Source of the DNA: Ilex aquifolium
Lineage: Eukaryota > Streptophyta > Magnoliopsida > Aquifoliales > Aquifoliaceae
Direction of reading: 5' to 3'
Assembly: GCA_951799425.1 (NCBI GenBank)
Contig: OX637393.1
Coordinates: forward strand, 10,288,744-10,352,743
Length of the DNA: 64,000 nt
Part shown: one piece after another, positions 8,160 through 45,618 of the stretch
Layout: every line of letters begins with the position of its first letter
Position numbering within the stretch: position 1 is the stretch's first letter
Program-made: the position numbers and the translations under genes
The notes under the pieces: model-generated
Told to the model about the DNA's origin: nothing
The model's input: the letters and a program-made list of their open reading frames with translations, nothing else
Database searches by the model: none

Positions 8160-8360
8160 AAAAATGTACACTAATACACAAGAACACATACACTAATATA
8201 CCAAGCACACACACACACACACACACTAATACACCAAAACATGCACGATCACACGTACACTAATATACCAAAAAGTACACTCACTAAAATACTAAAAAAC
8301 ACACACATATTAATACACATAAAAGACACACACAGATACACTAATGTACCAAAAAAATAC
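8160..8360. repeat. CA-rich minisatellite, block 2
   Basis: Continuation of the cacactaatacaccaaaa-type array between the MULE and the TRIM element. AATAC at 8356-8360 is the TRIM target duplication. Confidence 0.75.
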
Positions 8361-8880
8361 TGTAACACCCCTCCCTCAAATGGCAAGATATTGTCCGCTT
8401 TGGGCCTACTGGCCCTCACGGCTTTGTTCCTCCCAGTACCCCTGGGAAAATGCGTCTTGCCAAGTAAGGCCAGAGGCTTACATATAAAGCCCAGCAACTC
8501 CCCCTCCCTAGACGATGTGGGACACTAGGACTGCGCATCCTTAACAGGAACCTCACAATCCACTCCCTTAGGGCTGCACGTCCCCGTGCAGCACAGGCAT
8601 ACTTACTAGTAACCTCCTGCCCACACGCGAGCACGGCAGGGGCCCACCCTCGGACCAGGCGAGGGTCGGCTCTAATACCATTCTGTAACACCCCTCCCTC
8701 ACATGGCAAGATATTGTCCGCTTTGGGCCCACTGGCCCTCACGGCTTTGTTCCTCCCAATACCCCTGGGAAAACGCGTCTTGCCAAGTAAGGCCAGAGGC
8801 TTACATATAAAGCCCAAGAACTCCCCCTCCCTAGCCGATGTGGGACACCAGGACTGCGCATCCTTAACAGGAACCTCACA
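8361..8880 (-). mobile_element. Complete TRIM (miniature LTR retrotransposon)
   Basis: Two direct repeats of 197 bp each (8361-8557 and 8684-8880) enclose a 126-bp interior. The flanks are AATAC at 8356-8360 and AATAC at 8881-8885. On the minus strand the interior begins TGGTATTAGAGCC beside the LTR, a one-base variant of the initiator-tRNA-Met primer site. It ends with a purine-rich AAGGGAGTGG tract beside the other LTR, so the element points to the minus strand. Each LTR starts TGTGAGG and ends GGTGTTACA in that orientation. I count about seven differences between the two LTRs. There is no coding capacity, as expected of a TRIM mobilised in trans. Confidence 0.9.
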
Positions 8881-9088
8881 AATACACACGCACTAATACC
8901 CAAAACACATGCACATATACATTAATAAACAAAAACACCTAAACATACACACACATAGACACATACACTAATGCACAAAAAACATACACTAATACACCAA
9001 AAAAAATGCACACACTAATACACCAAAACACATGCACACAAGAATACATTAAAATATACACACACACATTGTAATATACCAAAATAGA
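8881..9088. repeat. CA-rich minisatellite, block 3
   Basis: Continuation of the array between the TRIM and the Athila-type element. It ends with ATAGA (9084-9088), one copy of the Athila target duplication. Confidence 0.75.
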
Positions 9089-10599
9089 TGATTAACCCTA
9101 ATTAATGCAAAATGTAATTAAGTTAATAGGTCAATTGTGTAATTAAATAAAGTTAAACTAGTCAAAATAAATCTAATTAGGGTTAATGTGTGAATTAAGG
9201 ATAATGCATTGAATGTTGTTCTTTTCAGGGTTTTATGCGTCAAAACTACAAACTACCGGGGAGCCAATTGTGACAAAGCTACAAACTTTAGGATGACAAT
9301 TATTAAAGCTCAAAAACAAAGGGAGATTAAAGTAATCCAAATGTCATCTTTGGGGATTATGAATGTCATCTTTTGGAAGCTTGTGAATGACAACTTTTGG
9401 AAGCTTGTGAATGGCATCTTTGGGGCTTGTGAATGTCATCCCTTGGAGTTTGTAAAGGGCATATTTTGGTTGCCTATAAATACCACCCATTTGTGGCTTG
9501 TAAAGATCATCAAATTTTTGCTAGAGCTCTTGGTTCTAGAAAACCCTCCAAGTTGTTATTTCTTTGTATGCTTATTAGATCTCTCTTGGTTGTGGAATAC
9601 CCTCCAAGTTGTTATTACTTTCTTTGTATTATTGCTTTCTTTTATGGTATTATCATCTCTTGGTTGTGGAATACCCGCCAAGTAATTATTGCTTTCTTTT
9701 AATTTAAGTATTGTTTTCTTTTACTTCCATTGTTGGAGCTTCCTTCTTCCCTTAGAGGAGTGAAACTCTTCCACTTTTCTAGAGCTTTACCAAAGCCGTG
9801 AAGGGTGGAACGTGATTCACTTATTCTTTGTCGAAGATCGGCTCTTTTTGTAATATGTCAAAGTTATATTGATGCATTTCTTTTACACTTAGCTCTAATC
9901 TTTATTTCTTCATAATGTCTTTCCATTACATTGTTAGTTTTAACTTAAGCATGAGTAGCTAAGCCTTTAAGTTGACTAATCCATGGGAGACCTCCTCTTG
10001 GGTATGCCATTTCAACTCATTGTCCTTTCTCCTCTCAGAGTACGATGGTTCGGTTTGACTGGGTAGAGGATGGACGAGATTGTGAGTCTTTGATATCCCG
10101 TAGACTTGTCACGGGTTATACTTGGATCCTCACTTTCATCTCGTCCCTAGCTTCCCATGAATCAATTGTACATCTATGCTCTATTGGAGGAAGGATTCAA
10201 GTTGACTTGGTAATCCCATTGGAGTGAACCCTTTGGATTAGCCAACATTTTTTCCATTCCAATTTCGTTAAGACAAAATCACAAACCCAACTTCAAAATC
10301 AAAAGATTTTCCACTTTCTTTTTCACCAAAATCACTTTCAAAACGATTCACATCCTTCCCCGAGGAGACGACCTTGGAATACTTTTCCAAGTAAAACACG
10401 ACACTCAAAAGACTCCTTGTGCTTGGGGAGCACTTTTGTTCACACACACACATTTTGTACATTTCATATTCCACCATTCCCTTGCCCTTTCTTTTGACAT
10501 CATCCCAAGGGAGAGTGACACTTCCCTTCATCCATACACTATACATTGTTAAGGGATGGTTTTTAGAGGATAGGAAACAGTAAGGTTTTTCATCAAGCA
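9089..10599 (+). repeat. 5' LTR of the Athila element
   Basis: This 1511-bp repeat is matched by 19693-21275. The 72-bp length difference equals three units of the 24-bp minisatellite near 9370-9420. Open frames inside (for example 9209-9685 and 10268-10627) recur in the other LTR but show no protein features, and I treat them as non-coding. Confidence 0.92.
9475..9482 (+). promoter_or_regulatory. LTR TATA box
   Basis: TATAAATA lies in the context tgcctataaatacc within the 5' LTR. It is repeated in the 3' LTR at 20150-20157. It is the best candidate promoter for the genomic transcript. Confidence 0.5.
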
Positions 10600-10602
10600 T
10601 TT

Positions 10603-10622
10603 TTGACGCCGTTGCCAGGGAA
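10603..10622 (+). other. Primer-binding site (tRNA-Asp type)
   Basis: Just after the 5' LTR the sequence GACGCCGTTGCCAGGGAA resembles the GGCGCCGTTGCC...GGGGA primer site used by Athila elements, with one or two mismatches. Confidence 0.7.
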
Positions 10623-10757
10623 GGCAAGCGTTAAACCTAGAAGGTGATTTTCGGACAACGGAGGTAAGTCCCGTGATGTTCATCATGGGCTGAGGTACGT
10701 TGATCCTTGTATATACTTTTGTTTGTTTACATTTTCATTTACAGATAGTTTTGTTGC

Positions 10758-13700
10758 ATGTGGGGTAGAGACGAACAAAATCGACTAGTTAGACAACCCT
10801 TGGGCCCCAACATGAACCTTGACCTAGACCTACCCGAGGATGCAGGTGAAAATTTTGACAATATGGGAGACATTCCTAATGTTCAAAGGGGTGGGGGAGT
10901 GCCCGAACATAGGATGCCAAATGCACAAATGCAATTTCCCCCCTCCCGTGAATGAAGGGAATAACATTCCAATGGATCCTCCGGCAAGGTCTATGAGGGA
11001 TTTCCTTCAACCAAATCGTAGCACCACACCCTCATGTGTCTTCCTCCCAGTCCAAGCTCAGCTTTTCCAAGTTAAGCCGGGGATGTTGCAACTACTTCCC
11101 ACATTCCATGGGATTGAAAACGAAAACCCGTACCGGCACATAAAAGGGTTTGAGGATATAGTTGCAACATTCAATGCTAACTATGCTATGGAGGACATAG
11201 CTCGATTGAAATTGTTCCCTTTCTCCCTTAGTGATAAGGCCAAATCATGGTTTGATGGCATGCGACCTCGATCCATTACCACCTGGGCTCAAATGGTTTC
11301 AGTATTTTTAAATAATTTTTTTTCGGTTCATAGAACCACTGCTTTGAAAAAGGAAATTCAAAATTTTTCTAAGAAGCCCAATGAGCAATTTTATCACTGC
11401 TGGGATCGTTACAAAGAGTTGTTGCAATCCATACCACATCATGGCTTTGAGTCGTGGCAATTGGTAAGTTTCTTCTACGAAGGAATCACACCAACCCATA
11501 GACAATTCATTGACATGATGTGCAATGACGAGTTCTTGAACAAAGACCCTGATGAAGCCCTAGACTACTTTAGTACATTGGCTCAAAATGCACAATCTTG
11601 GGACGTTAGGGATCCTAACGATGTACCTAGGACATCTCCGGGTAGTAGTCAACCACAAAGGGGGAGGGATCTATGATTTGAGAGACCGGGAAGACTTGCT
11701 TTCACAAATTGCCAAATTATCAAGGAAAGTTGATAGTCTAGAGGTCAATAAGAGGCATGAGGTGTCACATATGTCAAAGACCGAGGGGGTTTGTTCAATT
11801 TGTGAGAGTGTCGAGCACCCCATATCGGAGTGCCCGAGCATTCCGGCACTTAAGGAAGCATACCATGAACAAGTCCATGCCTTCAATCAACCGAGGCACT
11901 CATTTTCTCCAAATGCTAACACTTATAATCCAGGGTGGAGTAATCACCCTAATTTCAGTTGGAGAAATGACAACCCCGTCGCTCATGGATCAAACACATA
12001 CACATCTCCCGTGCCACCTAAGCAAGGTCAACACCACAACCAATACCAAGGTCAAGGGCAAGCATCTAGCTCCCAAAACCCCCGGTCCAACCCTCAAGGG
12101 TATTCATCCAGTCCACCGTCCCAAAACTTCTCCCAACAAGGTCCATCAAATTCTTCCACCTACCAACCTCCCCATAAGAGGAACTTGGAGGATGTGCTCT
12201 ATAATTTCATTCAAAGCCAAACCACCTTCAATAACAACATTTCGGCCCAACTCACCAAGATTACCAATGCCATAGGGTTATCACAACAAGAGAAGGAGAA
12301 ATTCCCCGCTCAACCCCAAGAGAACCCTAAGGGGCAACATGCCATTGAGTCATCCGACCCCACCAAAGAGAGTTGCGAGCAACTCAAGGCAATCACCACC
12401 CTTCGTAGCGGCAAACAAATTGACAAAACCATTTTGCCAAGGGTCTCACCCAAAGCTTCATTGCCAATAGAACAAGAGAAGGAGAGTGAGACCAAAGAGG
12501 GTAAGGAGAGTGAGTCCAATGAGGGTGAGTTGAGTAAAGAGAAAAAGGGGGAGAGTGATGAGAAAGAAAAAGTGACCGATGATTCCTTCTTTGTGCCTCC
12601 TATGCCTGCCCCTTTCCCACATCATTTGAAGCCACCTGTGAAGGTGGCAAATTATACTGACATTTTGGAAATGTTCAAGCAGGTAAAGATCAACATCCCT
12701 CTCCTCGATGCCATCAAGCAAATACCGTCTTGTGCCAAAATTCTAAAGGATCTATGCATGGTGAAGAGGAGATTGAATGTCCGGAAGAAGGCATTCTTGA
12801 CCGAGCAAGTCAGCTCAATATTGAGGACCAATACTCCTCCCAAATTCAAAGATCCTGGCTGTCCAACAATTGCCATCACCATAGGGAATTGCCAGGTGGA
12901 ACAAGCATTGCTTGACTTGGGAGCGAGCGTCAATCTCCTTCCCTACTCCGTGTATCAACAACTCAAACTTGAGGAGTTGAAGCCCACCTCAATCACGCTT
13001 CAATTGGCGGACCGTAGTGTCCGTACACCAAGGGGAGTAGTTGAGGATGTCTTAGTTCAAATTGATAAATTTTACTTTCCCGTCGATTTTATTGTTCTTG
13101 ATACACACCCTGTTGCAAACCTTAGCTCCCAAATTCCCGTAATACTTGGAAGACCCTTCCTTGCTACATCTAATGCTGTGATAAATTGCAGGAACGGTCT
13201 AATGAAGTTGACATTTGGGAATATGACAATGGAGCTCAATGTATTCAACTTGGCAAAGCAACCAGGTGATGACGAGGAAGTAAGTGAGGTCAATAGAATC
13301 GACACCTTAGCCAAGGAGCACTTGGAGTTGGAAAGGATGTTGAAATTCAAGGAGGAAGAATTATTTGAACTGGAGGAGTTAAATGAGAAAGAGGAGGTTG
13401 AAGAGTTGAAAGGGATGGAAAGGTGGATTCCCACATTTGAGGAGTTACCCAAGCAAGAAAAGAAAATTTTCCCGTCGGATGAGCAAAAGCCAAACTTGGA
13501 GTTGAAGCTATTGCCCTCCCATTTGAAGTACGCTTATCTTGGCGAAGGAGAAACATTTCCGGTGGACATTAGCTCTATCCTGAACATGGAACAAGAAGAA
13601 AAGCTCTTAGAGGTATTGAGAAAGCACAAGGGAGCAATTGGGTGGACTATTGCGGATATCAAGGGAATAAGCCCTATCATTTGCACCCATCGTATTTACC

Positions 13701-14533
13701 TTGAGGAGGATGCCAAACCCTCCCGACAACCTCAACGGAGATTAAATCCCAATATGAAGGAGGTTGTGAAGGATGAGGTATTAAAACTACTTGATGTGGG
13801 CATCATCTTTCCGATCGCTGATAGCAAGTGGGTAAGTCCCACACAAGTAATACCAAAGAAATCTGGAGTCACGGTGGTGGAAAATGAGGAAAATGAACTC
13901 ATACCTACAAGAGTCATAACCGGATGGAGAGTTTGCATCGACTACCGGAAGCTTAATGCTTGCACAAGGAAATATCATTTCCTAATGCCATTTCTTGATC
14001 AAGTTTTGGAAAGGGTAGCAGGGCACCTATTCTATTGCTTTCTAGATGGATACTCTAGCTACAATCAAATTGAGATCGCATTGGAGGATCAAGAAAAGAC
14101 CACTTTCACCTGCCCCTATGGTACCTTTGCCTACCGCCGCATGCCGTTTGGACTATGCAATGCTCTGGGGACTTTCCAACGATGCATGATGGGGATTTTC
14201 AGTGATATGGTGGAGAAAATAGTGGAGGTCTTCATGGATGATTTTTCAGTGTTTGGTGATTCATTTGACGGATGCTTGAAAAACTTGGAGAGAGTATTGG
14301 AGAAGTGTGAAGAAAAGGATCTCGTGCTGAATTGGGAAAAGTGTCACTTTATGGTGATGGAAGGAATCGTGTTGGGCCACATAGTATCGGGAAGGGGCAT
14401 TGAAGTTGACAAATCTAAGGTGGAGGTCATCTCCAACCTCCCCACGCCGTCAGCCATCAAGGGAATCCGGTCATTTTTGGGCCATGTAGGTTTTTATCGC
14501 CGATTCATTCAGAATTTTAGTGCATTGGCCTGA
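10758..14533 (+). pseudogene. Athila gag-protease-reverse transcriptase, first part of broken polyprotein
   Basis: Three overlapping frames make the 5' part of the polyprotein. gag begins at the ATG at 10758 and changes frame at a C run near 10936. It continues at 10840-11676 with the capsid-like gag domain (LPTFHGIENENPYRHIKGFE, on to FSTLAQNAQSWDV). It changes frame again at a G run near 11660 and then stays in one frame to 14533. In the last frame (counted from 11588), residues 69-82 are a CX2CX4HX4C zinc knuckle. The protease motif DLGAS is near residue 442 and the reverse transcriptase FMDD motif near residue 881. An in-frame TGA at 14531-14533 interrupts the segment just after FIQNFSALA. 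Both frameshifts lie in homopolymers, so a sequencing error cannot be excluded. Confidence 0.9.
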
Positions 14534-16411
14534 CCCCTGACCAACCTACTGTCTAAGGAGGTTCCCTTTGAGTGGTCGGATGAGTGTGAGGCATCTTTTA
14601 AAAAACTAAAAAACATGCTTGTCACGCCTCCTATCATGCGACCACCCAATTGGGATCTTCCTTTCGAGCTCATGTGCGACGCAAGTGATTACGCGGTTGG
14701 CGTAATGCTTGGTCAGAGGGAGGACAATCGACCGTATGTTATACACTACGCTAGCAAAACACTTAATGAGGCTCAAATGAATTACACTACCACTGAAAAA
14801 GAATTGTTAGCCGTAGTGTTTGCTTTAGATAAATTCCGGTCATATATCATTGGTTCGCCTATTGTTGTCTTTACTGACCATTCTGTCTTGAAATACTTGT
14901 TATCTAAGCAGGATGCGAAACCAAGACTCATTAGGTGGATCCTCCTCCTACAAGAATTTAACTTGACAATTAAAGACAAGAAATGAGTTGAGAATGTTGT
15001 GGCGGATCACTTATCCCGGCTGGTGGTGCAGGAGACTAATGAACATATTTCTATTCCTGACTCTTTTCCTGATGAACATTTACTTTCTATTCATTCAGTA
15101 TGTCCTTGGTATGCTGACATTTGTAATTACCTTGTAATAGGACAAATACCGCCACAATGGAGCCCGAAAGATAAAAAATGATTCATGGCAGACGTGAAGT
15201 ATTTTTACTTCGACAATCCGTACTTGTTCAAATATTGCCCAGACCAGGTCATGAGGAGATGCGTACCCGAAAATCAACAGCGGAACGTCCTTGCATTCTG
15301 CCATTCCCAAGCTTGTGGCGGACATTTCTCGGCGAAGAAAACTTCGGCCAAAATTCTTCAGTCAGGTTTTTATTGGCCCTCTCTTATTAAAGACTGTGTT
15401 TCATATTGTAAGGCATGCGACAGATGCCAACGATTGGGTAGTGTGACCCGTAGAAATATGATGACCCTTTCCCCCGTGCTTGTCATCGAAATATTTGACT
15501 GTTGGGGCATCGATTTCATGGGTCCATTCCCCATGTCTTTTGGCTATCTGTACATTCTTCTGGCAGTAGACTACGTGTCTAAGTGGGTAGAGGCTATCCC
15601 AACCAAGACTAATGACCACCGGGTCGTAGTCAAGTTCCTCAAAGAAAATATTTTTTCAAGGTTTGGGATGCCTCGTGCAATGATCAGTGATGGTGGATCC
15701 CACTTCTGTAATAGGTCATTTGCATCATTAATGTTTAAATATGACGTTACACACAACGTATCCACTGCATACCACCCACAAACCAATGACCAAGCTGAAT
15801 TAGCCAATAGGGAGATTAAGAACATCTTGGAAAAAATGGTTAACCCAAACAGGAAGGATTGGTCAGTCAGACTGACCGATGCCTTATGGGCGTACCGTAC
15901 TGCCTATAAGACTGTTTTGGGCATGTCTCCCTACCGGTTGGTTTATGGAAAGACTTGCCATTTGCCGGTTGAAATGGAGCACAAGGCCTATTGGGCCATT
16001 AAGACCTTGAATTTTGACTTGAGAATGGCTGGTGAGCAGAGAAAGTTGGAACTGAATGAATTGGAAGAAATCCGCCGAGATGCGTATGAGAGTTCAAAAA
16101 TTTCAAAAGAACGGACCAAAATCTTTCATGACAAATCCATTGTGAGGAAATCATTTGAGTCCGGGCAAAAAGTGATTTTATACAATTCTCGTCTATCCAT
16201 TTTTCAAGGAAAACTTCGATCCCGTTGGGATGACCCCTATCTTGTTAAGGTGGCCTACCCCAACAGAGCTGTGGATGTCACAAACCTCGACAATGGCCAG
16301 ACATTCAAGGTCAATAGCCAAAGACTTAAGCCATTCTTTGAGGGTTTTGAAGGACAAATGGTGGAGGAGGATTTAATTGATCTGGTGTATCCGGATTTGG
16401 TGGAGGAGTAG
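14534..16411 (+). pseudogene. Athila RNase H and integrase, continuation of the same broken frame
   Basis: The frame is the same as upstream, with further TGA codons at 14984-14986 and 15179-15181. The part 14540-14983 is the RNase H domain ([38 protein letters not shown]). From 15185 the integrase runs 408 residues: a zinc-binding H...H...CKAC motif, catalytic aspartates in [10 protein letters not shown] and ISDGGSHFC, and the glutamate in [17 protein letters not shown]-terminal chromatin-facing region follows and ends with the normal TAG at 16409-16411. All three interruptions are TGA. The first is best explained by a CGA-to-TGA change. Confidence 0.9.
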
Positions 16412-16872
16412 CTAGTGTTTATGCTTTTTAGTGTACAGTTGCTTTTATTTATTTGTTATTTTTATGTCACTTACTTTCTTTGGTTGTATAGTATTGTTTT
16501 TCTGAGTTTCAGATATTGGTGCTTTTATCGAAACTAAATTGCAAGGTGTTTTCTAACCCTACTCATTTTTTTACTGTCCTTCATTGAATATCATACCTTG
16601 TTGTTTCATTGATGAAAATACATGATTCAAGTTGGGCGGTGATGAGCACTATTTGCATCTTAAACCAATGTTTGTGGGAATATTATGCGCGAATATTCGC
16701 GCCTGCCGACACTCGCTTTTTTAAAAAAAAAGGGGCCGACCCAATGGGATGCCTTTATTAGGCCTCCCACTTTTTTTTTTCCCCCATCACCGGTGTTGGT
16801 TCCCCCCCCCCCCTTCTTCTTCTTCTTCTTCTTCATTGTTCTCTGTAAAAACAACCCACCCCCTACAAATTC
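16412..16872. other. Athila post-pol region with low-complexity tracts and a 16-bp palindrome
   Basis: No gene seen. A perfect 16-bp palindrome, GCGCGAATATTCGCGC, lies at 16687-16702. Downstream are T, C and (TTC)n tracts near 16770-16840. Any leader or promoter of the two small downstream frames would lie here. Confidence 0.5.
16687..16702. promoter_or_regulatory. GC-rich palindrome with E2F-like half sites
   Basis: GCGCGAAT followed by ATTCGCGC is a perfect palindrome. Each half contains TTCGCGC, which resembles the core recognised by E2F factors. It stands out in AT-rich surroundings 186 bp before the membrane-peptide frame. A regulatory role is inference only. Confidence 0.25.
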
Positions 16873-17010
16873 ATGGCTGTAGAACCCGAAGACCTAGTCC
16901 TTTGTTTAATAATTTGTGTTATATGTCTGTATTTGTTCATGGGTGTTCTTCTTCTGTTCGCATTTAAGATTAAGACTTTCCAGCCGAACCCAGATCTCCC
17001 TAGAAGATGA
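16873..17010 (+). CDS. Possible 45-residue single-pass membrane peptide inside the Athila 3' region
   Basis: A short open frame reads MAVEPEDLVLC, then a continuous hydrophobic stretch of roughly residues 8-31, then a basic and proline-rich tail (FKIKTFQPNPDLPRR). The shape is a short acidic N-terminus, one transmembrane helix and a positive C-terminus. Small hydrophobic proteins of similar build occur in several plant RNA viruses, and Athila elements may have membrane-anchored envelope-like products here, but I do not recognise a family. It lies 462 bp after the pol stop and about 350 bp before the cysteine-rich frame. Its shortness means chance is possible. Confidence 0.35.
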   Translation: MAVEPEDLVLCLIICVICLYLFMGVLLLFAFKIKTFQPNPDLPRR

Positions 17011-17126
17011 TTAATTGATGTGTGTTGTTTGTAGGTTTCGGCAGATGAACAGATCTGTACCTTACAACCTCATTTCCAAACTTCATACACTGGTAAATTC
17101 GAAACATTGGGGACAATGTTCAGTTT

Positions 17127-17140
17127 AGATTGGGGGGGTG
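17127..17140 (+). other. Internal polypurine-tract-like motif
   Basis: AGATTGGGGGGGTG followed by TGGATC closely matches the true 3' tract AGGTTGGGGGGTG followed by TGATTAAC at 19680. It is preceded by 'cattggggacaatgtt', which I associate with the pre-LTR region of plant gypsy elements. It may be a second plus-strand priming site, or the fossil of an earlier 3' end before the 17.2-19.6 kb segment was gained. Confidence 0.5.
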
Positions 17141-17363
17141 TGGATCTACTTTCTCTAGTTTCATATTTGTAATTCTAGTTTTAGATCTGAACAGTTCACA
17201 GTTCTTCAAAAAAAAAAAAGGGTTCTGTTTATTTTTATTCTGGATTGCGTATTTTTACAGTATTTGTGTCTATATTTCATGATCACATCGGATGCAGCTT
17301 CAATTGTCTTTGTGATTAGCAGACGTTAAAGAACCAGATAGGGTGTCTCTAATTTTAGCAAGC

Positions 17364-17768
17364 ATGGATAGTAAACATTTTTGGTTCAGTTTAGGCGTTT
17401 TACGCACATTTCCATCCGATGTGTATGCTGTGATAATGAAAAAGGCAAGAGTTGTGAGAAAAATTGAAATCCGGGAAGCACAAGCAAAACCATTGTGTGG
17501 CAGAAGCACTTGTGCTAAACGTCGTCGTGCTAGACGACTGGGTGCTTGTAAACAATGTGGCAGGTGTTTTCACATGAAAAAATACAATCAGTGTTCTGAA
17601 CCAATTTCGGGTCGTGCAACCGATCGATTAAACTGGATAGTGTATGGGCAGAGTAAGGATTTTCCTGACACGCCATCTTATTCCAGCCCGGGACTTACAC
17701 GTTATGTGTTACAAGAAGTTGGAAGGGTCACTAATACTGACATAGACACAAGCGATGACTTGGATTAG
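17364..17768 (+). CDS. Cysteine-rich basic protein resembling carlavirus nucleic-acid-binding proteins, in an Athila element
   Basis: The frame has 134 codons from the Met at 17364; an in-frame Met at 17343 would add seven residues. The N-terminal third is hydrophobic and mixed (LGVLRTFPSDVYAVIMKKA). Residues 45-58 read CGRSTCAKRRRARR, an arginine-rich basic patch. Cysteines at 45, 50, 62, 65, 68 and 77 follow (ACKQCGRC then YNQC), a possible zinc-binding cluster. The tail is acidic (SDDLD). The order of an FPxD-type helix, GRS, a block of arginines, GxCxxC and a further cysteine is that of the small nucleic-acid-binding proteins encoded last in carlavirus genomes (Pfam Carla_C4), some relatives of which suppress RNA silencing. 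I see no coat-protein remnant upstream. The frame is intact although gag-pol of the same element is broken. Alternatives are a host zinc-finger fragment or chance resemblance. The family call is from reading only. Confidence 0.6.
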   Translation: MDSKHFWFSLGVLRTFPSDVYAVIMKKARVVRKIEIREAQAKPLCGRSTCAKRRRARRLGACKQCGRCFHMKKYNQCSEPISGRATDRLNWIVYGQSKDFPDTPSYSSPGLTRYVLQEVGRVTNTDIDTSDDLD

Positions 17769-19679
17769 ATTTTGACTAATAAAGACAAAGCTGTAGAAAA
17801 ACGTATTTTGGGATGAAGGTTAAGGGTCCGAACTTTTTTGTAAATATTTTTTGTACAAAGTCTTTTTGTTGAAATAAATATGTGGGCCGAGTAAGGAATG
17901 TCCTAAAATGCCAACCTATAGCGTGGGTAGGGACTTATCCTGAGACGCCATAATTTTCCAAGTTCAATTTGTGCATTTAGTCTTCTTTCAATTTTCATAG
18001 ATAAATGTGTATATAAATAACTTTGATCTTTAACTGGAGTTTAAAAAAATAAAAATATAAAAAAAATAAAAATTGTGGAAAATATCTAATATTGAACCAT
18101 ATCCCCTTATTGAAAGTGTATGAGCCTAGTGATATTTTGATTTTCATTTTGAACTTTGAATACATGAGCATGTTATAGAAGTTTATCCTATTGCTAAGAG
18201 TATCACATACTTGTTTGCTTTTGAACTCAACCATAAGTGCACCATGAACTTGTTATTTTGGCAATTTACGGATTGAGTTCACATTTAGTGCTTGACATGA
18301 ATAGTGCAGATGAGTAAGAACCCATGTGAGCTTTAATGTCAATCCTCGTTTGGAGGGAACTTACAATTACTCAAGGAACAATTTTTCAAATTTCAAATTT
18401 GTTCAGTAATCTCATTATGCTTGTTTTGGTTAGGTGCATTTGGCTAGTTAATTAACTTTGTCTTGATATATACAATGCTCTCCTTTGCTTATCTAGATAT
18501 GATCTTAGGCCATTTTCTTTTTATTTATTTGAGCCTTAGCTTTTATTCTTGTGAAAATATTATCCTTAGTGCCGCGATTGAGCTTCAATTGAAATTCGTA
18601 TCTATGCCACACATTTGACCAAGCCAGTGAAAATGATAAATCTCTACCTTACCTTGGTTGTTCCTCAAGCTGAATATGAGTGATCACAAAAGTGAAGGAA
18701 GCATGGTGTGGAAACTCAAACAAGGGGATAATTGATGTTGAAACTCAAAGAGTTAATAGAAAAAGAATGAAAATCTAAGAAGAGGAAGAAAAAGGGGTGA
18801 GAAGAAGAAAGAATGATCGAAAGAAAAAGGAAACTGTTAAGAAAAAAAAAAAAAGAGTGTGGTGATGGGTTTGGACTGAAAAATCCCATGTAAAGGGAGA
18901 TGTTTTTAGTCTTTCACTCATAACAACCCTATTTGTTATCCTATATCCTTCATTCTTTTTGCCTAGATATCACCCCAAGGCCTCATTACAACCCTTGAAA
19001 GTCCTAAATGATCTAGAGAAGCATGGGAGATGCATACTTTTAAAGAAAAAGAGAAGTTGATTTTGCTATCTATTGCCCTAACATTCCTTTCATGAGATTA
19101 TGCCAAAGTTGTTTCACTTTTTTATGCATGTGCTTCATTTCTGGATTATAGGTGAGCATACTTCGGTTTGTGCATAAAATTCTATCTCACATATACACAT
19201 GGAGAGCATGCCAAGATATTCATAGTGTGATTCATTGTTGAGAGAAACCCTTGGTGAGTTTTGCATCAAAGCTTAATTTGGATAGCTATGTGAATGTGGA
19301 TTCTGTTGAATAAATACTTAAATTACATCTTCATTTCACACACACACGAGTTTTGAAAGTAAATGTGTAGGTGAATACTCTAGAATAGCATTTAAGGCTA
19401 TGATGTCTTTCATGTATGATTAGTTCAGGTGTATTGAACAAAGCTATTATTGACATCCCATTGCTAGTTAGAATACGGACATATGTTGCAATTGTTGGAT
19501 ATTAGAAAAAGAAGTTTGTAGGTACCTTCACTGGAAACCTTCACGAGACAAAACTCAGCCACTAGGGATCACTTAGGGGTTTAACGGCTTGTTGCATATG
19601 CTAAATGCAATCGTGTTATCTACAAAAGTGATTTTATTTTGTTCTGTTGTCATTTGTTACTAAGGGACTAGTAATGTTT
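17769..19679. other. Athila 3' non-coding region
   Basis: AT-rich sequence of about 1.9 kb between the cysteine-rich frame and the polypurine tract. No frame with protein features on either strand. Near 18770-18860 there is a purine-rich stretch (agaagagg, aaaaaaagag). Confidence 0.5.
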
Positions 19680-19692
19680 AGGTTGGGGGGTG
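19680..19692 (+). other. Polypurine tract of the Athila element
   Basis: AGGTTGGGGGGTG lies directly against the TG that opens the 3' LTR at 19693. This is the expected site of plus-strand DNA priming. Confidence 0.8.
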
Positions 19693-21275
19693 TGATTAAC
19701 CCTAATTAATGCAAAATGTAATTAAGTTAATAGGTCAATTGTATAATTAAATAAAGTTAAACTAGTCAAAATAAATCTAATTAGGGTTAATGTGTGAATT
19801 AAGGATAATGCATTGAATGTTGTTCTTTTCAGGGTTTTATGCGTCAAAACTGCAAACTACCCGGGAGCCAATTGTGACAAAGCTACAAACTTTAGGATGA
19901 CAATTATTAAAGCTCAAAACAAAGAGAGATTAAAGTAATCCAAATGGCATCTTTGGGGATTATGAATGTCATCTTTTGGAAGCTTGTGAATGACAACTTT
20001 TGGAAGCTTGTGAATGACAACTTTTAGAAGCTTGTGAATGACAACTTTTGGAAGCTTGTGAATGACAACTTTTGGAAGCTTGTGAATGGCATCTTTGGGG
20101 CTTGTGAATGTCATCCCTTGGAGTTTGTAAATGGCATCTTTTGGTTGCCTATAAATACCACCCCTTTGTGGCTTGTAAAGATCATCAAATTTTTGCTAGA
20201 GCTGTTGGTAGTAGAAAACCCACCAAGTTGTTATTTTCTTTGTATGCTTACTAGATCTCTCTTGGTTGTGGAATACCCTCCAAGTTGTTATTACTTTCTT
20301 TGTATTATTGCTTTCTTTTATGGTATTATCATCTCTTGGTTGTGGAATACCTGCCAAGTAATTATTGCTTTCTTTTAATTTAAGTATTGTTTTCTTTTAC
20401 TTCCATTGTTGGAGCTTCCTTCTTCCCTTAGAGGAGTGAAACTCTTCCACTTTTCTAGAGCTTTACCAAAGCCGTGAAGGGTGGAACGTGATTCACTCAT
20501 TCTTTGTCGAAGATCGGCTCTTTTTGTAATATGTCGAAGTTATATTGATGCATTTCTTTTACGCTTAGCTCTAATCTTTATTTCTTCATAATGTCTTTCC
20601 ATTACATTGTTAGTTTTAACTTAAGCATGAGTAGCTAAGCCTTTAAGTTAGCTAATCCATGGGAGACCTCCTCTTGGGTATGCCATTTCAACTCATTTTC
20701 CTTTCTCCTCTCAGAGTACGATGGTTCGGTTTGACTGGGTAAAGGGTGGATGGGATTGTGAGTCTTTGATATCCCGTAGACTTGTCACGGGTTATACTTG
20801 GATCCTCACTTCCATCTCGTCCCTAGCTTCCCATGAATCAATCGTACAACTATGCTCTATTGGAGGAAAGATTCAAGTTGACTTGGTAATCCCATTGGAG
20901 TGAACCCTTTGGATTAGCCAACATTTTTTCCATTCCAATTTCGTTAAGACAAAATCACAAACCCAACTTCAAACTCAAAAGATTTTCCACTTTCTTTTTC
21001 ACCGAAATCACTTTCAAAACGATTCACATCCTTCCCCGAGGAGACGACCTTGTAATACTTTTCTAAGTAAAACACGACACTCAAAAGACTCCTTGCGCTT
21101 GGGGAGCACTTTTGTTCACACACACACATTTTGTACATTTCATATTCCACCATTCCCTTGCCCTTTCTTTTGACATCATCCCAAGGGAGAGTGACACTTC
21201 CCTTCATCCATACACTATACATTGTTAAGGGATGGTTTTTAGAGGATAGGAAACAGTAAGGCTTTTCATCAAGCA
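19693..21275 (+). repeat. 3' LTR of the Athila element
   Basis: This 1583-bp repeat corresponds to 9089-10599. It carries three more 24-bp units (gaatgacaacttttggaagc type) around 19985-20085 than the 5' LTR, exactly accounting for the 72-bp length difference. It is followed by ATAGA, the second copy of the target duplication. Confidence 0.92.
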
Positions 21276-21454
21276 ATAGACACACTAATATACACACATA
21301 CACACTAACAGACAAAAAAGACTCCACATATTAATACACCAAAATGCATACACATACACTAATACACTAAAAAATATACACTCTAATACACTAAAAAATA
21401 CACAATAATACACCTAAAAACTACACATGCACTAATATACCAACAACACATACA
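21276..21454. repeat. CA-rich minisatellite, block 4
   Basis: Resumption of the array after the Athila element. It ends with CACATACA (21447-21454), the left target duplication of the hAT-like element. Confidence 0.75.
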
Positions 21455-32033: not shown

Positions 32034-32335
32034 CTTACCATTCCCGTTAGGCAGCCATTTGATGATCTACTCCCTAGCTTGGTTTGGAACATAACTAGGC
32101 ATAGTGTTTGCAATATCCAACTACTCCTCTGATCTGATGAGTGGCCATGTCCACATGTTACTGTCAATCATTTTGTTAACCTTAGAATTCTTAGGAAGCC
32201 TTGACTGGAGGATGGTTCTTTCATTGCAAAAAAAAGAAGTCAATGGACCTCTAGAATGCCAATTGTCTGCCATAGATGGGTGTTATCACCATTCCCAATG
32301 ATGTGTCGTAAAAATGGCATGATTATGTCCCTAAG
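32034..32335 (-). pseudogene. LINE (L1-type) ORF2 remnant, downstream part
   Basis: The minus strand, read with shifts, gives LRDIIMPFLRHIIGNGDNTHLW and then pieces such as SNMWTWPLIRSEE, the linker region after reverse transcriptase in plant L1 elements. It joins exactly with 45619-46025 if the 13.3-kb retrotransposon is removed. Its left end is cut by the copia-type LTR. Confidence 0.7.
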
Positions 32336-33026
32336 TGATGGTGTAAACCTGCGCGAATGAGCTATGGGACTGGATTATGTGGTATGAACGATCTTTGTGA
32401 GGCTTGATATGGCATCTGAGCTACAAGGCTCATGTATCGAAGGACGAATGCTCTAATTAACCGACATGTAGTGCGTGTGATACAGTAGAAGTATAGTGGT
32501 TCACCGGCTAATGAGCTCGGCTAGTCCACTCTTTAATGGAGATTCTTGCTCCTTTCTCTTTATTGATCAATTGAATCTGTTACAGTAGAATTCTCTCTCT
32601 CTTAGGGTTTCCAGTTGCTCTCTTTTTATAGCCTCATACTTACCTCTAATTCGGAATTACCTCCTTTATCGAAGGGATTGCTTCCTATCTTCATCTATCA
32701 TCTCGGAGTTACCTAGACTTCCTATAGCTGGTTCCAAATGGCTTGGTTTTTGCCTTTTATCATGGGATCCTCTCCTTGATTGTAGGAGAGGATCCTTGCT
32801 GGTAATGTGTTACGCGCCTTGGATTAGCTGAATTCCCATTATTAATATATCTGCTGTCGACTTGCTGTCCTCTTAACATTTATCGCCTTATGTCTTCAGC
32901 TGGGAGTACAAGTGTTGACTGGTCGAGCTCAGATCGTGGCTGGGTGAGCTCGGTTTATTTTCCCTGTCCTCCAGAGCTGAGCTCTTTTCCTGAGCTCGTG
33001 TCTGGGGTTTATTTTAAGTATCATCA
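32336..33026 (-). repeat. 3' LTR of the young Tat element (left copy)
   Basis: A direct repeat of 44928-45618 with identical length. On the minus strand it starts TGATGATACTT and ends TTTACACCATCA. A minus-strand TATAAAAAG lies in the middle. The inner side abuts GGCTGGGGGGCAAC (33040-33027 on the minus strand), the polypurine tract. Confidence 0.93.
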
Positions 33027-39432: not shown

Positions 39433-42400
39433 TTACTGGAAAAACTTCTTAAGGTGCTCGGCATTCCACGAGTGAGGTAGGAGCTTTTCCTCCTCTGTTT
39501 GCAATTCGTAATTCCCTGGTCGGATTACCCTTGACACGATATAGGTCCCTTCCCAGTTGGGCCCCAATTTTCCATGCATGGGATCCTTTCTTGCAAGCAG
39601 AAGCCTCCTAAGTACCAAGTCTCCAGTCTTGAAGCTTCGGTGCCTTACCTTCCTGTCGTAATACCTTGCAGTTTTCCTTTGGTAAATGCGGACACGATGC
39701 AGAGCTCTGTCCCTTTTTTCATCCAAGAGATCGAGGTTTAATAGGAGAGATTCATCATTGTGGTCGGCATCTGCAAATTCCACCCTTGGTGATTGGAGCC
39801 CTATCTCCACAGGGGCTACTGCCTCGATTCCAAAGGCCAGAGCGAAGGGGGTTTCCTGAGTTGCAGATCTGACGGTGGTCCGGTAGGCCCACAATACCTC
39901 AGGGACGTATTCCACCCACTTGCCTTTCAGGTTTTCTAGTTTGGTCTTCAAGGCTGACTTTATGGTTCTGATTGTGACCTCTGTCTGCCCATTGGATTGG
40001 GGATGTGCAGGAGCTGAGAAATAGTTCTTGATCCCAAGCTCAGCACAAAAGCTTTTGAATTTTGAATTGTCGAACTGCTTTCCGTTGTCAGACACGACCG
40101 CTCTGGGAACCCCAAACCTGCAAACTATCGATTTCCAAACGAAGTTTTGAACTTTTTGCTTAGTTATTGTTGCCAAAGGTTCGACTTCTGCCCATTTGGT
40201 GAAGTAATCCACTCATATGATGGCAAACTTGCACTGTCCCACAACGGTGGGGAGGGGTCCCAGAATGTCCAAACCCCACTGCTGAAAAGGCCATGGGCTT
40301 ACCACCGAGGTTAGGAGCTCGGGAGAACAGTGGGTCGCATTGGCATGCTCCTGGCAAGTTTTGCATTTTCTTACTAAGTCGGTGGCACTTTTGAGCATGG
40401 TGGGCCAAAAATACCCTTGCCTAAGTACTTTTCCTGCCAAGGCACGAGCCCCTATGTGATTGCCGCATATACCTTCGTGCGCCTCTCTGAGTATATAATT
40501 GGTATCCTTATCTCCCACACATTTAAGGAGAGGCGTTGAGAATCCACGCTTGTACAGACCTCCTTGCAGCAAGGAAAATCTGGCTGACCTGGCCCTTAGC
40601 TTGGATGCCTCCTTAGCATCACTTGGCAAAGTCCCATTCTGCAGGTACCCTATGATGGGGTCCATCCAGCTCGGCTGAGCTTCGACTGATAGCATGTCCT
40701 CTTCTTCGATACTTACTGAAGGCTCCGGGAGATGCTCCACTGGTATTAGTCTATCCAAGTCTTCTTGCGAGGCAGTTGCTAATCTTGCCAACGCATCTGC
40801 TCGTGAATTTTCTGCTCTGGGCACATGTCTGACCTTAACCTGCACAAATTTTTTCATTATTTCTCGTACCTTTTTGAGGTAAAGGACCATCTTTTCGCCT
40901 CTCGCTTCGTAGGCCTTTTCTATCTGTTTTACCACTAGTTGAGAGTCGCTGCAGACCTCCAGCTGCTCTGCTTCCATAGAACAAGCAAGATTAAGCCCAG
41001 CGATGACAGCTTCATATTCTGCCTCATTATTTGAAGCTTTGAACCCAAACCTGAGGGCATATTCGACGTCTATTCCTTCTGGGGAGGTTAGGATCATTCC
41101 TGCACCGCTTCCCTGAGCATTGGCAGCTCCATCTACTGAAAGCTTCCATATAGGGAGGTCTGGTATTAAATCCGTGGTTTCCATAGGCGCTGCTGCTGTG
41201 AACTCTGCGATAAAATCTGCCAAAATTTGCCCTTTGATGGCAGTTCTTGGCTTATATCTGATATCAAACTCACTGAGCTCTATGGCCCATTTAACCAACC
41301 TCCCTGAAGACTCTGGCTTATGCAATACTTGTTTCAACGGCTGATCTGTTGGGACCTCGATAGTATGAGCCTGGAAATAAGGTCTAAGTCTTCTAGCTGT
41401 TGTAACCAGGGCTAGAACAAGTTTTTCCATTTTTGGATACCTCTCCTCTGCCCCCCTCAGAGCTCTGCTACAGTAATAGACTGGTTGCTGAGCTCTGTCT
41501 CGCTCCCTAACCAGCGCTGCGTTTGTCGAAAAATCTGAAACTGCTAGGTAGAGGGTGAGGACTTCCCCTTCTAAAGGGCTTACCAAAACGGGGGGAGAGC
41601 TCATATAGCTTGTTAGGGCTCCGAACGCTTCTTCACACTTGGCATCCCACTGGAATGCCTTCTTCAAGACCTGAAAAAATGGCTGGCATTTATCGCTTGA
41701 CCTAGACACGAAACGGCTCAGGGCAGCTATCCTGCCTGTCAAGCGTTGCACCTCTTTTGTGTTGGATGGTGATTGCATTTCCACCATTGCTCTGACCTTT
41801 TCTGGGTTGGCTTCAATTCCTCGGCTGCTAACTATGAAACCCAGAAACTTCCCTGCTGATACACCGAATGCGCATTTCGCAGGGTTGAGCTTCATTTTGT
41901 ACTCCTTTAGGATTCGGAATGACTCAGCTAAGTGCTCGATGTGGAGCTCTGCTTTGAGTGACTTTACTAACATGTCGTCAATGTAAACTTCCATGGATGC
42001 CCCTATTTGCTTTTGGAACATCCTATTCACCAAGCGCTGGTAAGTAGCTCCAGCATTCTTCAACCCGAAGGGCATGACTTGATAACAGTATGTTCCTTGT
42101 TCAGTTACGAAGGAGGTCTTCTCTTGATCGCTGGGGTCCATCCTGATTTGGTTGTAGCCTGAGAAGGCATCCATGAAGCTGAGGAGCTCATGCCCGGCTG
42201 TGGCATCCACTATTAGGTCAATCCGAGGCAAGGGAAAGCTATCCTTGGGGCATGCTCGGTTGAGATCAGTGAAGTCAATGCACAGTCGCCACTTTCCATT
42301 GGTTTTCTTTACAAGAACCACATTTGTTAACCAGATGGGGTAATCAACCTCCCTGATAGCCTTGGCATGTAGGAGTTTGCTGACCTCCTCATTGATTGCC

Positions 42401-44865
42401 CTTTGCCTTTCGGGGGCAAAGCTCCTCCTCTTCTGTTTGATGGGTTTGCAAGTTGGGCTCACACTTAGCTTATGGGAAATAACCGAAGGATCAATTCCCT
42501 CCATGTCTTCTTGCTTCCAAGTAAACACTCCTATATTCTCTTTTAGGAACTGGATGAGGAGTCCTTTGAGCTCAGCGTTCAGTCTGGAACCCACATAAAC
42601 GAGGTGTTCTGGCTTTTCATCAAGCTGAACTGGTTCCAGCTCTTCCGATGGTATTGGCCTTGTCTCCATTTCATCTCTCATGTCGAGTTCGTCCAGTTGG
42701 ATGTTCTCAACCTCCTTTTTCTTTATAGAAGCCATATAGCACTCCCTCGCTATACGCTGGTCTCCTCGGACTACCCCGATTCCATTATCTGTAGGGAATT
42801 TCACGACTAAGTGATAGGCAGATGGGATTGCCTTCACAGAATTAAGGGATGGCCTTCCAAGCAAGATGTTGTATGCAGATGGTGCATCGACTACTAGGAA
42901 CTTTACGGTGGTAGTGGCTTGGCAAGGTGGGTCCCCTAGGGTGAGCACGAGCTGGATCGAGCCTAGGGGGAGTACCCTTTCTCCAGAGAATCCTAGCAAG
43001 TGAGTGCTTACTGGCTCAAGTCTTTCCCTTCCTATATCCATCTTGTCAAACGCAGGTGCGAAAAAGATATCTGTCGAGCTCCCATTATCGATTAGAACAT
43101 GATGAACAGTTCTATTAGCCACCACTGCTCGCACCACCAATGGGTCATCATGAGGGTACTGGCATCCCTCCAAATCAGCATCTGAGAAAGTGATAGCTGT
43201 ATCTATGCGTGGTGTTTTGGATACAGCGTGCACTTCGAGAGCTTCTTCGGCTCTGATCCGGCGGAGGTGTGCTTTCCTGGCCGAGCTAGATTCTCCGCCT
43301 CCTGCGAACCCTCCTGATATTACTCTGATCTCCCCTAGAGGTTGCTGGGGCGGTGCCGGTGCCTGCTGTCGGGGTGGTGCAGGTGGAAGAGGTCGGTTCT
43401 GGTTGTCATTGGCTACAAAACGACGTAACTGACCTCGTTGGATCAAAAACTCGATCTCCTTCTTTAATTGAATGCAGTCATCAGTGTGGTGACCACGGTC
43501 TCTATGGTAATCGCAGTACTTGGTGGGGTCTCTTTTGGCTGGATCTGCCTTCATCCGAGGTGGCCATCTTAAGAACTTCTCGTTTTGGACCTCATACAGA
43601 ACTTGCGATACAGCGATAGTGAGTGGGGTGAATCGCTGGGGTCCATATCTGACATTTCCTCTTCTTTTTGGCGAGCGGTCCCTATCTCTTCTGGGAGACC
43701 TCTCTCGCCCTTTTTCCTTCCTGGGACTCCTGTCCCTTCTCTTCTCCTCTTTTTCCTTCTCCTTGCGTGAGGATGTTCCTCCTACTTTAGAAAGGAGTGC
43801 CTCTTCGCCATTTATATACTTCTCTGCCTTGGCTAGCACCTCAGCCATGCTTGCCTGAGGGTTCTTTGATATAGAGAACATCAAGTCCTTTGATTGCACT
43901 CCCAACCTTGCAATGAAAGCAGTTATGGCGAATTTTTCGTCTGGGACGTCTACCTTCAATGTCTCCGAGTTAAACCTTTGGACATAAGACCTCAGGTTCT
44001 CTTGGGGACCTTGCTTCACGTTCAGCAGGTGGTAGCTTGGCTTTCTGTATATCCGGGCTCCTATAAAGTGAGATACGAAAGCTATGGAGAACTCTTTAAA
44101 GGATGAGATCGAGGCTGGTGGGAGCCTGTGAAACCAGGCTAAGACAGAGCCTTTCAATGTGATGGCAAAAGCTCTGCAGCGTACGGGATCCTGGTATCCA
44201 TGTAGCTCCATCTGGTTCTTGTAAGTGTTGAGATGATCCACGGGATCTTTTGACCCATCAAAGACCTCTATTTGAGGCATCCTGAACTTCGGTGGGAGAG
44301 GGAAGTGTAGCACCCCCGTGGTGAATGGGGACTCGGTTTGCTGAACCAAGACATCCATTGTAACCGGAGCTTTACTCCTTACAGCTCCCTTCATGTGGCT
44401 GAGCTTTTGTTGGATGTCTTTGAAGCGTTGCTCCCAGCGCTGCTCTTTCCTGTCCGGTGGATAAGGGAAAGAATCATCCCTATCGCCCCCGTCGTTCTGA
44501 CTTTGCATCTCGTCGTTATGGCCATTCCTAGGGGGTACATAAGGAGCATGCCCCCTGGTCTGGCTGCTTTCTCCTCCTTCGTCGACCTCTCTGAGGAGGT
44601 CCCAGTGTCGCCGTTCCCTGTAAGGGGGGTTATTCTGGCCTTCTTGGGCCGGTCGTGCCTCCTGTGGGCGTTGTACGAGCTTTGATAGCTCTGCATTTTC
44701 CTTTAGTAATCGTTGGTTGACGAGGCGAAGGGCCTCCAACTCGTTATTAATGGGGGAATTCGTCTCCTGGATGTTCCCTGGTTGTCTGCCGTTGGTGGCT
44801 TCCTGCTGATCTTGCATTCGTGGTAGATTTGTTTGACTTCTGCTCATATTTCGAGTTGTTACCAT
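39433..44865 (-). pseudogene. Tat-lineage gag-pol polyprotein, one in-frame TGA in integrase
   Basis: From the ATG at 44865 the frame is open for 1550 residues to a TGA at 40215-40213, then open in the same frame for 259 more to 39433. gag capsid-like domain is at about 195-350, an SR-rich linker at 360-405 and a CX2HX4HX4C knuckle at 451-464. Protease DNGS is at 594-597, reverse transcriptase at about 830-1010 with YIDD at 961-964, and RNase H at about 1105-1225. A second, archaeal-type RNase H spans about 1240-1365 (SVDGAA, NNEAEYEAV, CSDSQLV, ENSRADALARLA). Integrase has its zinc-binding motif at 1463-1504 and a first aspartate in WGLDILGPLP. After the TGA come VDYFTKWAEVEPLATI, VSDNGKQFDN and the catalytic glutamate in NGQTEVTIRTIK. 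Everything else is intact, so the TGA is the only visible lesion. Confidence 0.93.
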
Positions 44866-44905: not shown

Positions 44906-44926
44906 GTTCCCACAGACGGCGCCAAA
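44906..44926 (-). other. Primer-binding site of the young Tat element
   Basis: The minus strand reads TTTGGCGCCGTCTGTGGGAA directly after the LTR. This is the primer-site type of the Tat branch, and it is also present in the 4-kb derivative at 54056-54075. Confidence 0.85.
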
Positions 44927-44927
44927 C

Positions 44928-45618
44928 TGATGGTGTAAACCTGCGCGAATGAGCTATGAGACTGGATTATGTGGTATGAACGATCTGTGTGGGGCTTGAT
45001 ATGGCATCTGAGCTACAAGGCTCGTGTATCGAAGGACGAATGCTCTAATTAACCGACATGTAGTGCGTGTGATACAGTAGAAGTATAGTGGTTCACCGGC
45101 TAATGAGCTCGGCTAGTCCACTCTTTAATGGAGATTCTTGCTCATTTCTCTTTATTGATCAATTGAATCTGTTACAGTAGAATTCTCTCCCTCTTAGGGT
45201 TTCCAGTTGCTTTCTTTTTATAGCCTCATACTTACCTCTAATTTGGAATTACCTCCTTTATCGAAGGGATTGCTTCCTATCTTCATCTATCATCTCGGAG
45301 TTACCTAGACTTCCTATAGCTGGTTCCAAATGGCTTAGTTTTTGCCTTTTATCATGGGATCCTCTCCTTGATTGTAGGAGAGGATCCTTGCTGGTAATGT
45401 GTTACGCGCCTTGGATTAGCTGAATTCCCATTATTAATATATCTGCTGTCGACTTGCTGTCCTCTTAACATTTATCGCCTTATGTCTTCAGCTGGGAGTA
45501 CAAGTGTTGACTGGTCGAGCTCAGATCGTGGCTGGGTGAGCTCGGTTTATTTTCCCTGTCCTCCAGAGCTGAGCTCTTTTCCTGAGCTCGTGTCTGGGGT
45601 TTATTTTAAGTATCATCA
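44928..45618 (-). repeat. 5' LTR of the young Tat element (right copy)
   Basis: A 691-bp copy of 32336-33026 with about nine substitutions and no length change. A minus-strand TATAAAAAG at 45222-45214 is the likely promoter of gag-pol. CTAAG follows at 45619. Confidence 0.93.

Follow-up and report, generated by a model that had tools for sequence, protein, structure and literature searches.

A gene of the Viral_NABP/Carla_C4 family between the integrase and the 3' LTR of a probable Athila-type retrotransposon of Ilex aquifolium

Anti-silencing proteins encoded by mobile elements include the VANC proteins of Arabidopsis MULE elements, which act on DNA methylation. Plant LTR elements, Athila included, are known to contain extra open reading frames (ORFs) in their 3' part, and these are heterogeneous (PMC6317226, PMC11728184, PMC2410132); a title cited by PMC2410132 refers to the splicing of plant elements of the envelope class. 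A 2019 survey of extra ORFs kept those of at least 250 codons only (PMC6317226), so that a frame of 134 codons, as described here, could not appear in it. Orchid Ty3/gypsy elements contain an ORF encoding an AlkB-type RNA demethylase, and the AlkB domain is also found in Betaflexiviridae (PMC9289625). RNA-virus sequences are known in plant genomes, and in cucumber a betaflexivirus replicase-like sequence is located near retrotransposon-like sequence (PMC3136472). Among the viral proteins of the Viral_NABP/Carla_C4 family, fingers of the CCCC or CCHC type are described (PMC11213338). Grapevine virus A p10 shows a C-X-C-X4-H-X4-C finger and the arginine motif KRRRARR, through which it binds RNA, and it is a silencing suppressor (PMC9104223). 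In Potato virus M, the cysteine-rich protein (CRP) counteracts both intracellular silencing and the spread of silencing (PMC10219291).

The window analysed here, a stretch of 64,000 nucleotides of I. aquifolium (contig OX637393.1), contains a frame of this family, hereafter NABP, within a Ty3/gypsy element. The element shows the following features:

9084..9088, no strand, left target-site duplication ATAGA, identical to 21276-21280
9089..10599, plus strand, 5' LTR, TG...CA
10604..10621, plus strand, primer-binding site, resembling the 3' end of a tRNA-Asp
10661..10669, plus strand, candidate splice donor GAG/GTAAGT in the leader, intron start 10664, by a simple consensus score
10840..11676, plus strand, gag (Retrotrans_gag), in a frame that differs from those of the leader ATG and of pro-RT
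11588..14533, plus strand, C-terminal part of gag with a CCHC knuckle (11792-11833), protease and reverse transcriptase, with a premature stop at 14531
14615..14986, plus strand, RNase H, then in-frame stops at 14984 and 15179
15185..16411, plus strand, integrase (H2C2 and rve), 68% identical to the integrase of a second element, L001, over 403 aa
17103..17142, plus strand, conserved motif AACATTGGGGACAATG...TTGGGGGGGTG, polypurine tract-like, 5' of NABP
17301..17322, plus strand, candidate splice acceptor, exon start 17323, no ATG up to 17364
17364..17768, plus strand, NABP frame of the Viral_NABP/Carla_C4 family, 134 codons and a stop at 17766-17768
17517..17537, plus strand, arginine-rich motif KRRRARR, NABP residues 52-58
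17547..17594, plus strand, zinc-finger-like C-x2-C-x4-H-x6-C, NABP residues 62-77 (C62, C65, H70 and C77)
19681..19692, plus strand, polypurine tract, read by eye
19693..21275, plus strand, 3' LTR, TG...CA
21276..21280, no strand, right target-site duplication ATAGA, identical to 9084-9088

Pfam searches of the frames recognised gag, protease, reverse transcriptase, RNase H and integrase in that order, and the protease-reverse transcriptase-RNase H-integrase arrangement, the LTRs, the 5-bp target-site duplication, the primer-binding site (10604..10621), which we take to be that of tRNA-Asp, and the polypurine tract are those of a Ty3/gypsy element. The two LTRs differ at 34 mismatches in 1,510 aligned columns, with 74 gap columns (K2P 0.0229). 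Plant substitution rates are 0.7-1.3e-8 per site per year, which places the insertion about 0.9-1.6 million years ago. The gag-pro part changes frame twice, from the 10758 frame to the 10840 frame and from this to the 11588 frame, with the gag start ATG at 10758 read by eye, and pol shows internal in-frame stops at 14531, 14984 and 15179; the two frameshifts and three stops given in the preliminary description are therefore all present. Additional RNase H, the domain that marks Tat, the sister clade of Athila (PMC6317226), was absent, as in Athila, from the four gag-pol frames scanned with Pfam, between which there are gaps of about 80 and 200 nt. Athila ORF-1 (PF03078) was absent from the five frames scanned with Pfam; it is found in 16% of Athila elements and hence is not required (PMC6317226). 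By domain order and the lack of additional RNase H in the frames scanned, the carrier is a Ty3/gypsy element probably of the Athila clade, so that its earlier naming as an Athila retrotransposon holds for a Ty3/gypsy element with NABP 3' of the integrase and is only probable for the clade. Similarly, NABP had been placed where the Athila envelope-like gene belongs, which is correct for its position between integrase and 3' LTR, but no remnant of an envelope-like gene was seen in the carrier.

Other features of the window are as follows. To the left of the element, a direct 202-nt repeat is found at 8357-8881 (96% identical, starts 323 nt apart), and CA-rich microsatellite-like DNA at 8881-9088 resumes to the right of the element from 21276. 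A second Ty3/gypsy element is located at 39433-44865 on the minus strand, with LTR-like repeats at 32330-33026 and 44922-45618 that are 98.4% identical. Its long frame, 40213-44865, is open across 1550 codons and shows by eye an additional RNase H like that of Tat elements; it has 27-29% identity with pol of the element that carries NABP. On the plus strand, a 181-codon frame at 48108-48653 is germin-like (cupin) by eye and is a probable host gene, and a 282-codon frame at 59105-59953 resembles by eye the N-terminal part of a MuDR/MULE transposase. No tRNA genes and no Rfam families were found in the window. A search with 129 NABP proteins ruled out any further NABP copy, whole or decayed, in the window: 127 of them match 17325-17771, nothing was found at 16412-17300 or 17800-19692, and the 78 matches elsewhere have E values of 0.016 or worse.

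The NABP frame at 17343-17768 is present in the letters of the window, with GTG 17343 as the start of the listed ORF and the first ATG at 17364 (context AGCATGG). It contains FPSDVY, CGRSTCAKRRRARR and ACKQCGRC, in agreement with the 134-codon frame first described, and its GC content at codon positions 1, 2 and 3 is 0.47, 0.48 and 0.33. Between the integrase stop (16411) and the 3' LTR, no other frame is as long. In 500 dinucleotide shuffles of this stretch of 3,281 nt, an ATG frame of at least 134 codons arose in four and a stop-to-stop frame of at least 150 in 14. The length of the frame is by itself mildly unusual and is weak evidence; homology carries the case.

NABP matches Pfam Viral_NABP (PF05515) over residues 9-104 with 43.2 bits (cut-off 23, E 5.9e-11) and Carla_C4 (PF01623) over residues 32-69 with 24.5 bits (cut-off 20.9). 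Both curated cut-offs are passed, the Carla_C4 match anticipated in the preliminary description as well as the higher-scoring Viral_NABP, and the arginine-rich stretch is accompanied by a CCHC finger. On these profile matches, the window protein is a member of the Viral_NABP/Carla_C4 family. It is not the product of a carlavirus or vitivirus gene proper, being flanked by the integrase and the LTR of a retroelement. A plain protein search found 10 relatives with identities of 67-90%, each of which has both Pfam domains in its precomputed annotation. A profile built from these 10 matched 31 proteins, including a protein of Carrot vitivirus 1 (E 9.9e-3) and the RNA-binding protein of Grapevine virus A (41% over 68% of the query, E 1.4e-7). 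Of the viral proteins that the sequence searches named, among the matches listed, Grapevine virus A p10 is the nearest. The term carlavirus-like therefore fits the protein family, but the viruses named in these searches, among the matches listed, are vitiviruses and include no carlavirus.

Grapevine virus A p10, the product of vitivirus ORF5 (PF05515), shares with NABP the arginine motif KRRRARR with a finger directly after it, a D-R-L-x-[WF]-[IV] stretch past the finger (HKLDRLRFVKEGRV in Grapevine virus A) and an acidic TSDD tail. Unlike NABP, it has 90 aa, shows no N-terminal part and is encoded by an RNA virus, and its finger is C-X-C-X4-H-X4-C against C-X2-C-X4-H-X6-C in the window protein. 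The carlavirus CRP (PF01623) resembles NABP in the basic stretch and the first cysteines, over which the Carla_C4 profile matches, but this profile scores below Viral_NABP and covers residues 32-69 only.

Compared with its 10 close relatives, the window NABP shows eight residues absent from all of them. At six of these eight positions, the relatives that have a residue share the same one, with at most one exception. Among the private changes, C at 50 replaces F/Y and Y at 21 replaces H; each of the 10 relatives likewise has from two to 11 private residues. The STCAK cysteine (residue 50) was ruled out as a zinc ligand, since F or Y is found there in all 10 relatives, and the C of CGRC (residue 68) is not conserved among them. 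Of the cysteines stressed earlier, ACKQCGRC is thus present, but C50 is private to the window copy and C68 is variable. The frame had also been stressed as intact although gag-pol is broken. The damage to pol is as described, but about 4.6 substitutions are expected in the NABP frame since insertion and nonsense makes up 4.8% of single changes, so an intact frame is expected anyway; intactness is uninformative and was dropped as a sign of selection.

The wider family was searched with a wider profile, which gave 519 proteins at E<=10, of which the best 120 were examined. The window NABP and 129 proteins were grouped as group I (16, including the window protein), group II (14), group III (98) and viral (2). 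Group III proteins often have 182 aa. The basic core is present in 14 of 16 proteins of group I, 13 of 14 of group II, 84 of 98 of group III and both viral proteins. The CxxCx4H...C finger is found in 13 of 16 proteins of group I and nine of 14 of group II, and group III shows a CxxCx4Cx3C finger, with C replacing H, in 92 of 98; some misses in these counts are fragments. The two vitiviral proteins fit neither exact pattern, as they have one residue fewer between the first two cysteines. Across 125 aligned rows, 20-90% identical to the window protein, 18 positions are at least 90% conserved, including the basic stretch, the first two cysteines, D87, I92, G95, S97 and K98; the relatives were chosen by similarity, and this conservation is thus indirect as evidence of function. 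The relatives are predicted proteins, so that broken copies are under-counted; three rows of group II (P0028-P0030) look by eye like frameshifted copies. For two relatives, P0009 and P0014, the longest contig given has exactly 2,941 nt and comes from the same source; if this is the same contig, there are two NABP copies on it.

Among the matches listed, clusters of 566 and 315 sequences belong to group III, as do seven plant-named clusters: one of Xanthoceras (47 sequences), two of Populus (22 and 74) and four of Orobanche (5, 109, 1 and 37). They are named after Populus alba, Populus x canadensis, Xanthoceras sorbifolium, Orobanche hederae and, three times, O. gracilis; P. alba is a fabid, X. 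sorbifolium a malvid and O. gracilis a lamiid. No relative was found in the viral contigs scanned with the family alignment A1, P0017, P0110, P0023, A4 and the window integrase, and tblastn of P0110 against plasmids gave no match. The preliminary description had reckoned with further copies that keep the frame, and these exist in the 10 relatives at 67-90%, in the wide-profile family and in a second retroelement, L001.

The AlphaFold models of NABP are poor (pLDDT 60.6 and 69.6). With the first model, a Foldseek search against BFVD gave 39 matches, with a query-normalised TM of at most 0.43; the two at E<=0.001 (2e-4 and 6.5e-4) are both prunevirus RNA silencing suppressors, although the model is poor and the search weak. 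Also for this poor model, 21 of the 39 matches are viral proteins named as nucleic-acid-binding, RNA-binding or silencing suppressor, and these presumably span several genera. With the model from a deeper alignment, none of 23 fold matches reached E<=0.001, the best being the Cherry mottle leaf virus 15-kDa protein (7e-3), and a PDB fold search gave no match. As the alignment deepened, viral matches at E<=0.001 thus went from two to none, and the structural evidence for a likeness between NABP and the viral members is weak.

The reading that we prefer, with a little better than even confidence, is that NABP is a Viral_NABP family gene of a probably Athila element, likely spliced and RNA-binding, predicted to blunt silencing, and most likely captured from a betaflexivirus-like virus. 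The leader donor GAG/GTAAGT would be joined to a site just 5' of NABP, giving a spliced NABP messenger. By the simple consensus score, this donor is the best of 360 GT sites in 10600-17400, and of the AG sites in 16401-17364 the candidate acceptor at 17323 ranks joint ninth or lower. L001 also has, by eye, a pyrimidine-rich site resembling an acceptor 3' of the integrase stop, with no ATG before the NABP start. From its homology to Grapevine virus A p10 and the Potato virus M CRP, NABP likely binds RNA through the KRRRARR stretch and the CCHC finger, and is predicted to blunt host RNA silencing of the element's transcripts; selection may have favoured its retention in the element family.

A role for NABP in the element's own RNA handling (as a chaperone, in packaging, nuclear export or cell-to-cell movement) and not in silencing would also suit its basic, finger-bearing layout, and viral CRPs have other roles, such as virion association (PMC11213338); it is nevertheless rather unlikely, since the gag region of the element already has a CCHC knuckle, the presence of which also disfavours NABP as a replacement nucleocapsid, and the relatives of Grapevine virus A and Potato virus M are described as silencing suppressors (PMC9104223, PMC10219291).

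As to origin, gene capture from a betaflexivirus-like RNA virus, perhaps repeated, is the most likely course, its direction being unproven. An earlier scan of genome contigs found no NABP relative; a scan with 21 group III rows gave L001 (DAIEQH010000041.1), a contig of 3,330 nt, and L002, which was rejected because its match is a chance one within a bacterial frame of 802 codons, a Lon-type protease by eye. L001, the only further element seen with NABP in place, contains a 496-codon frame with integrase domains, which over 403 residues has 68% identity with the integrase of the window element, and the ATG of its NABP is 193 nt 3' of the integrase stop. This NABP frame is identical to P0050 and passes the PF05515 cut-off (Viral_NABP 34.2 bits) but misses that of Carla_C4 (19.8 against 20.9), and it is 34% identical to the window NABP over 56 residues, far below the identity of the integrases (68%). 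The contig is filed under a Candidatus Nomurabacteria MAG, a probable binning contamination of a public genome. As its integrase and NABP frames match the retroelement of the window, it is most likely plant DNA in a bacterial bin.

The window element and L001 share the motif AACATTGrGGACAATG...TTGGGGGG, 75% identical over 65 nt, which is located before NABP in the window (17103-17142) and after it in L001 (2574-2613), so that NABP stands at two different places in related elements. The CATTGrGGACAATG...TTGGGGGG motif resembles a polypurine tract in an internal position, with a short inverted repeat. Either two captures, or one capture followed by relocation and fast change, would give these placements. 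A tree of 45 rows is divided by a long branch (100/100), which separates group III from groups I and II together with the two vitiviruses; the root is arbitrary, only two viruses are included, their rows are long or have short coverage, and the bootstrap values had not stabilised. The two viruses form one clade, for which reason there may have been a single transfer; the clade was dropped as a measure of the number of captures, as its members are two vitiviruses. A bolder reading, that Athila-type elements of flowering plants captured betaflexivirus-like silencing suppressors at least twice, before and after the 3' motif, in the envelope position, with a spliced messenger and for counter-defence in hundreds of copies, across rosids and asterids, is put forward as a tentative one that may well prove wrong.

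The position of the vitiviruses on the group I/II side of the long branch (100/100), away from group III, and the existence of three diverged non-viral groups (I, II and III) would suit transfer in the reverse direction, of a gene native to plant retroelements taken up by betaflexiviruses. We consider this unlikely: the tree has two viral sequences only and an arbitrary root, and 21 of the 39 fold matches bear viral nucleic-acid-binding, RNA-binding or silencing-suppressor names, from what we take to be several genera. Improbable, too, is a functionless passive cargo, a viral fragment trapped once and copied by retrotransposition, against which stand the 18 positions at least 90% conserved over 125 rows (rows chosen by similarity) and the large NABP clusters (566 and 315 among the matches listed), although the window element is broken and its NABP copy is drifting. 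With its element broken and its own sequence drifting, the window copy is, under the preferred reading of a captured and retained gene, likely the remnant of a family in which the gene was retained, and does not prove that it acts itself. It is very improbable that NABP is a common zinc-finger or ribosomal (eL43/L37Ae) protein of the host, or a pseudogene of one, and a ribosomal eL43 origin was ruled out. The 14 PDB sequence matches include many ribosomal eL43/eL37 proteins, and the relative P0009 bears an eL43/L37Ae-type ribosomal name from its source, but the best PDB match has an E value of 0.076 against 5.9e-11 for Viral_NABP, no ribosomal family is given by Pfam at E<=1, and the better match to a host zinc-finger protein that would have told against the preliminary description was not found in the profile search.

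NABP as a predicted silencing suppressor resembles VANC in being an anti-silencing factor coded by the mobile element itself, but VANC belongs to a DNA transposon, is an unrelated protein and has DNA methylation as its target. Like the Athila envelope-like and other extra 3' ORFs, NABP lies between the integrase and the 3' LTR on the same strand; unlike the Athila-type extra ORFs, the window NABP shows no Pfam match to Athila ORF-1 or Transposase_32. The orchid AlkB ORF is likewise an extra ORF, of a kind shared with Betaflexiviridae and retained by a gypsy lineage, but it encodes a different protein with a different role, the removal of m6A (PMC9289625). In the accessible text of the open-licence literature, no report of NABP genes in retrotransposons was found among the matches listed, and such a report elsewhere in print is possible; the names or accessions of PF05515 and PF01623 were found there in two papers, both on methylglyoxal detoxification.

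If retroelements carry silencing suppressors of the RNA-virus type, plant genomes would be a reservoir of such genes, the arms race over transposon silencing would have drawn on the tools of viruses, and gene flow between RNA viruses and retroelements would exceed what was earlier believed. The same protein family may be compared in viral and transposon settings, and NABP suggests what the unexplained 3' ORFs of Athila-type elements may do, at least in the lineages that carry it.
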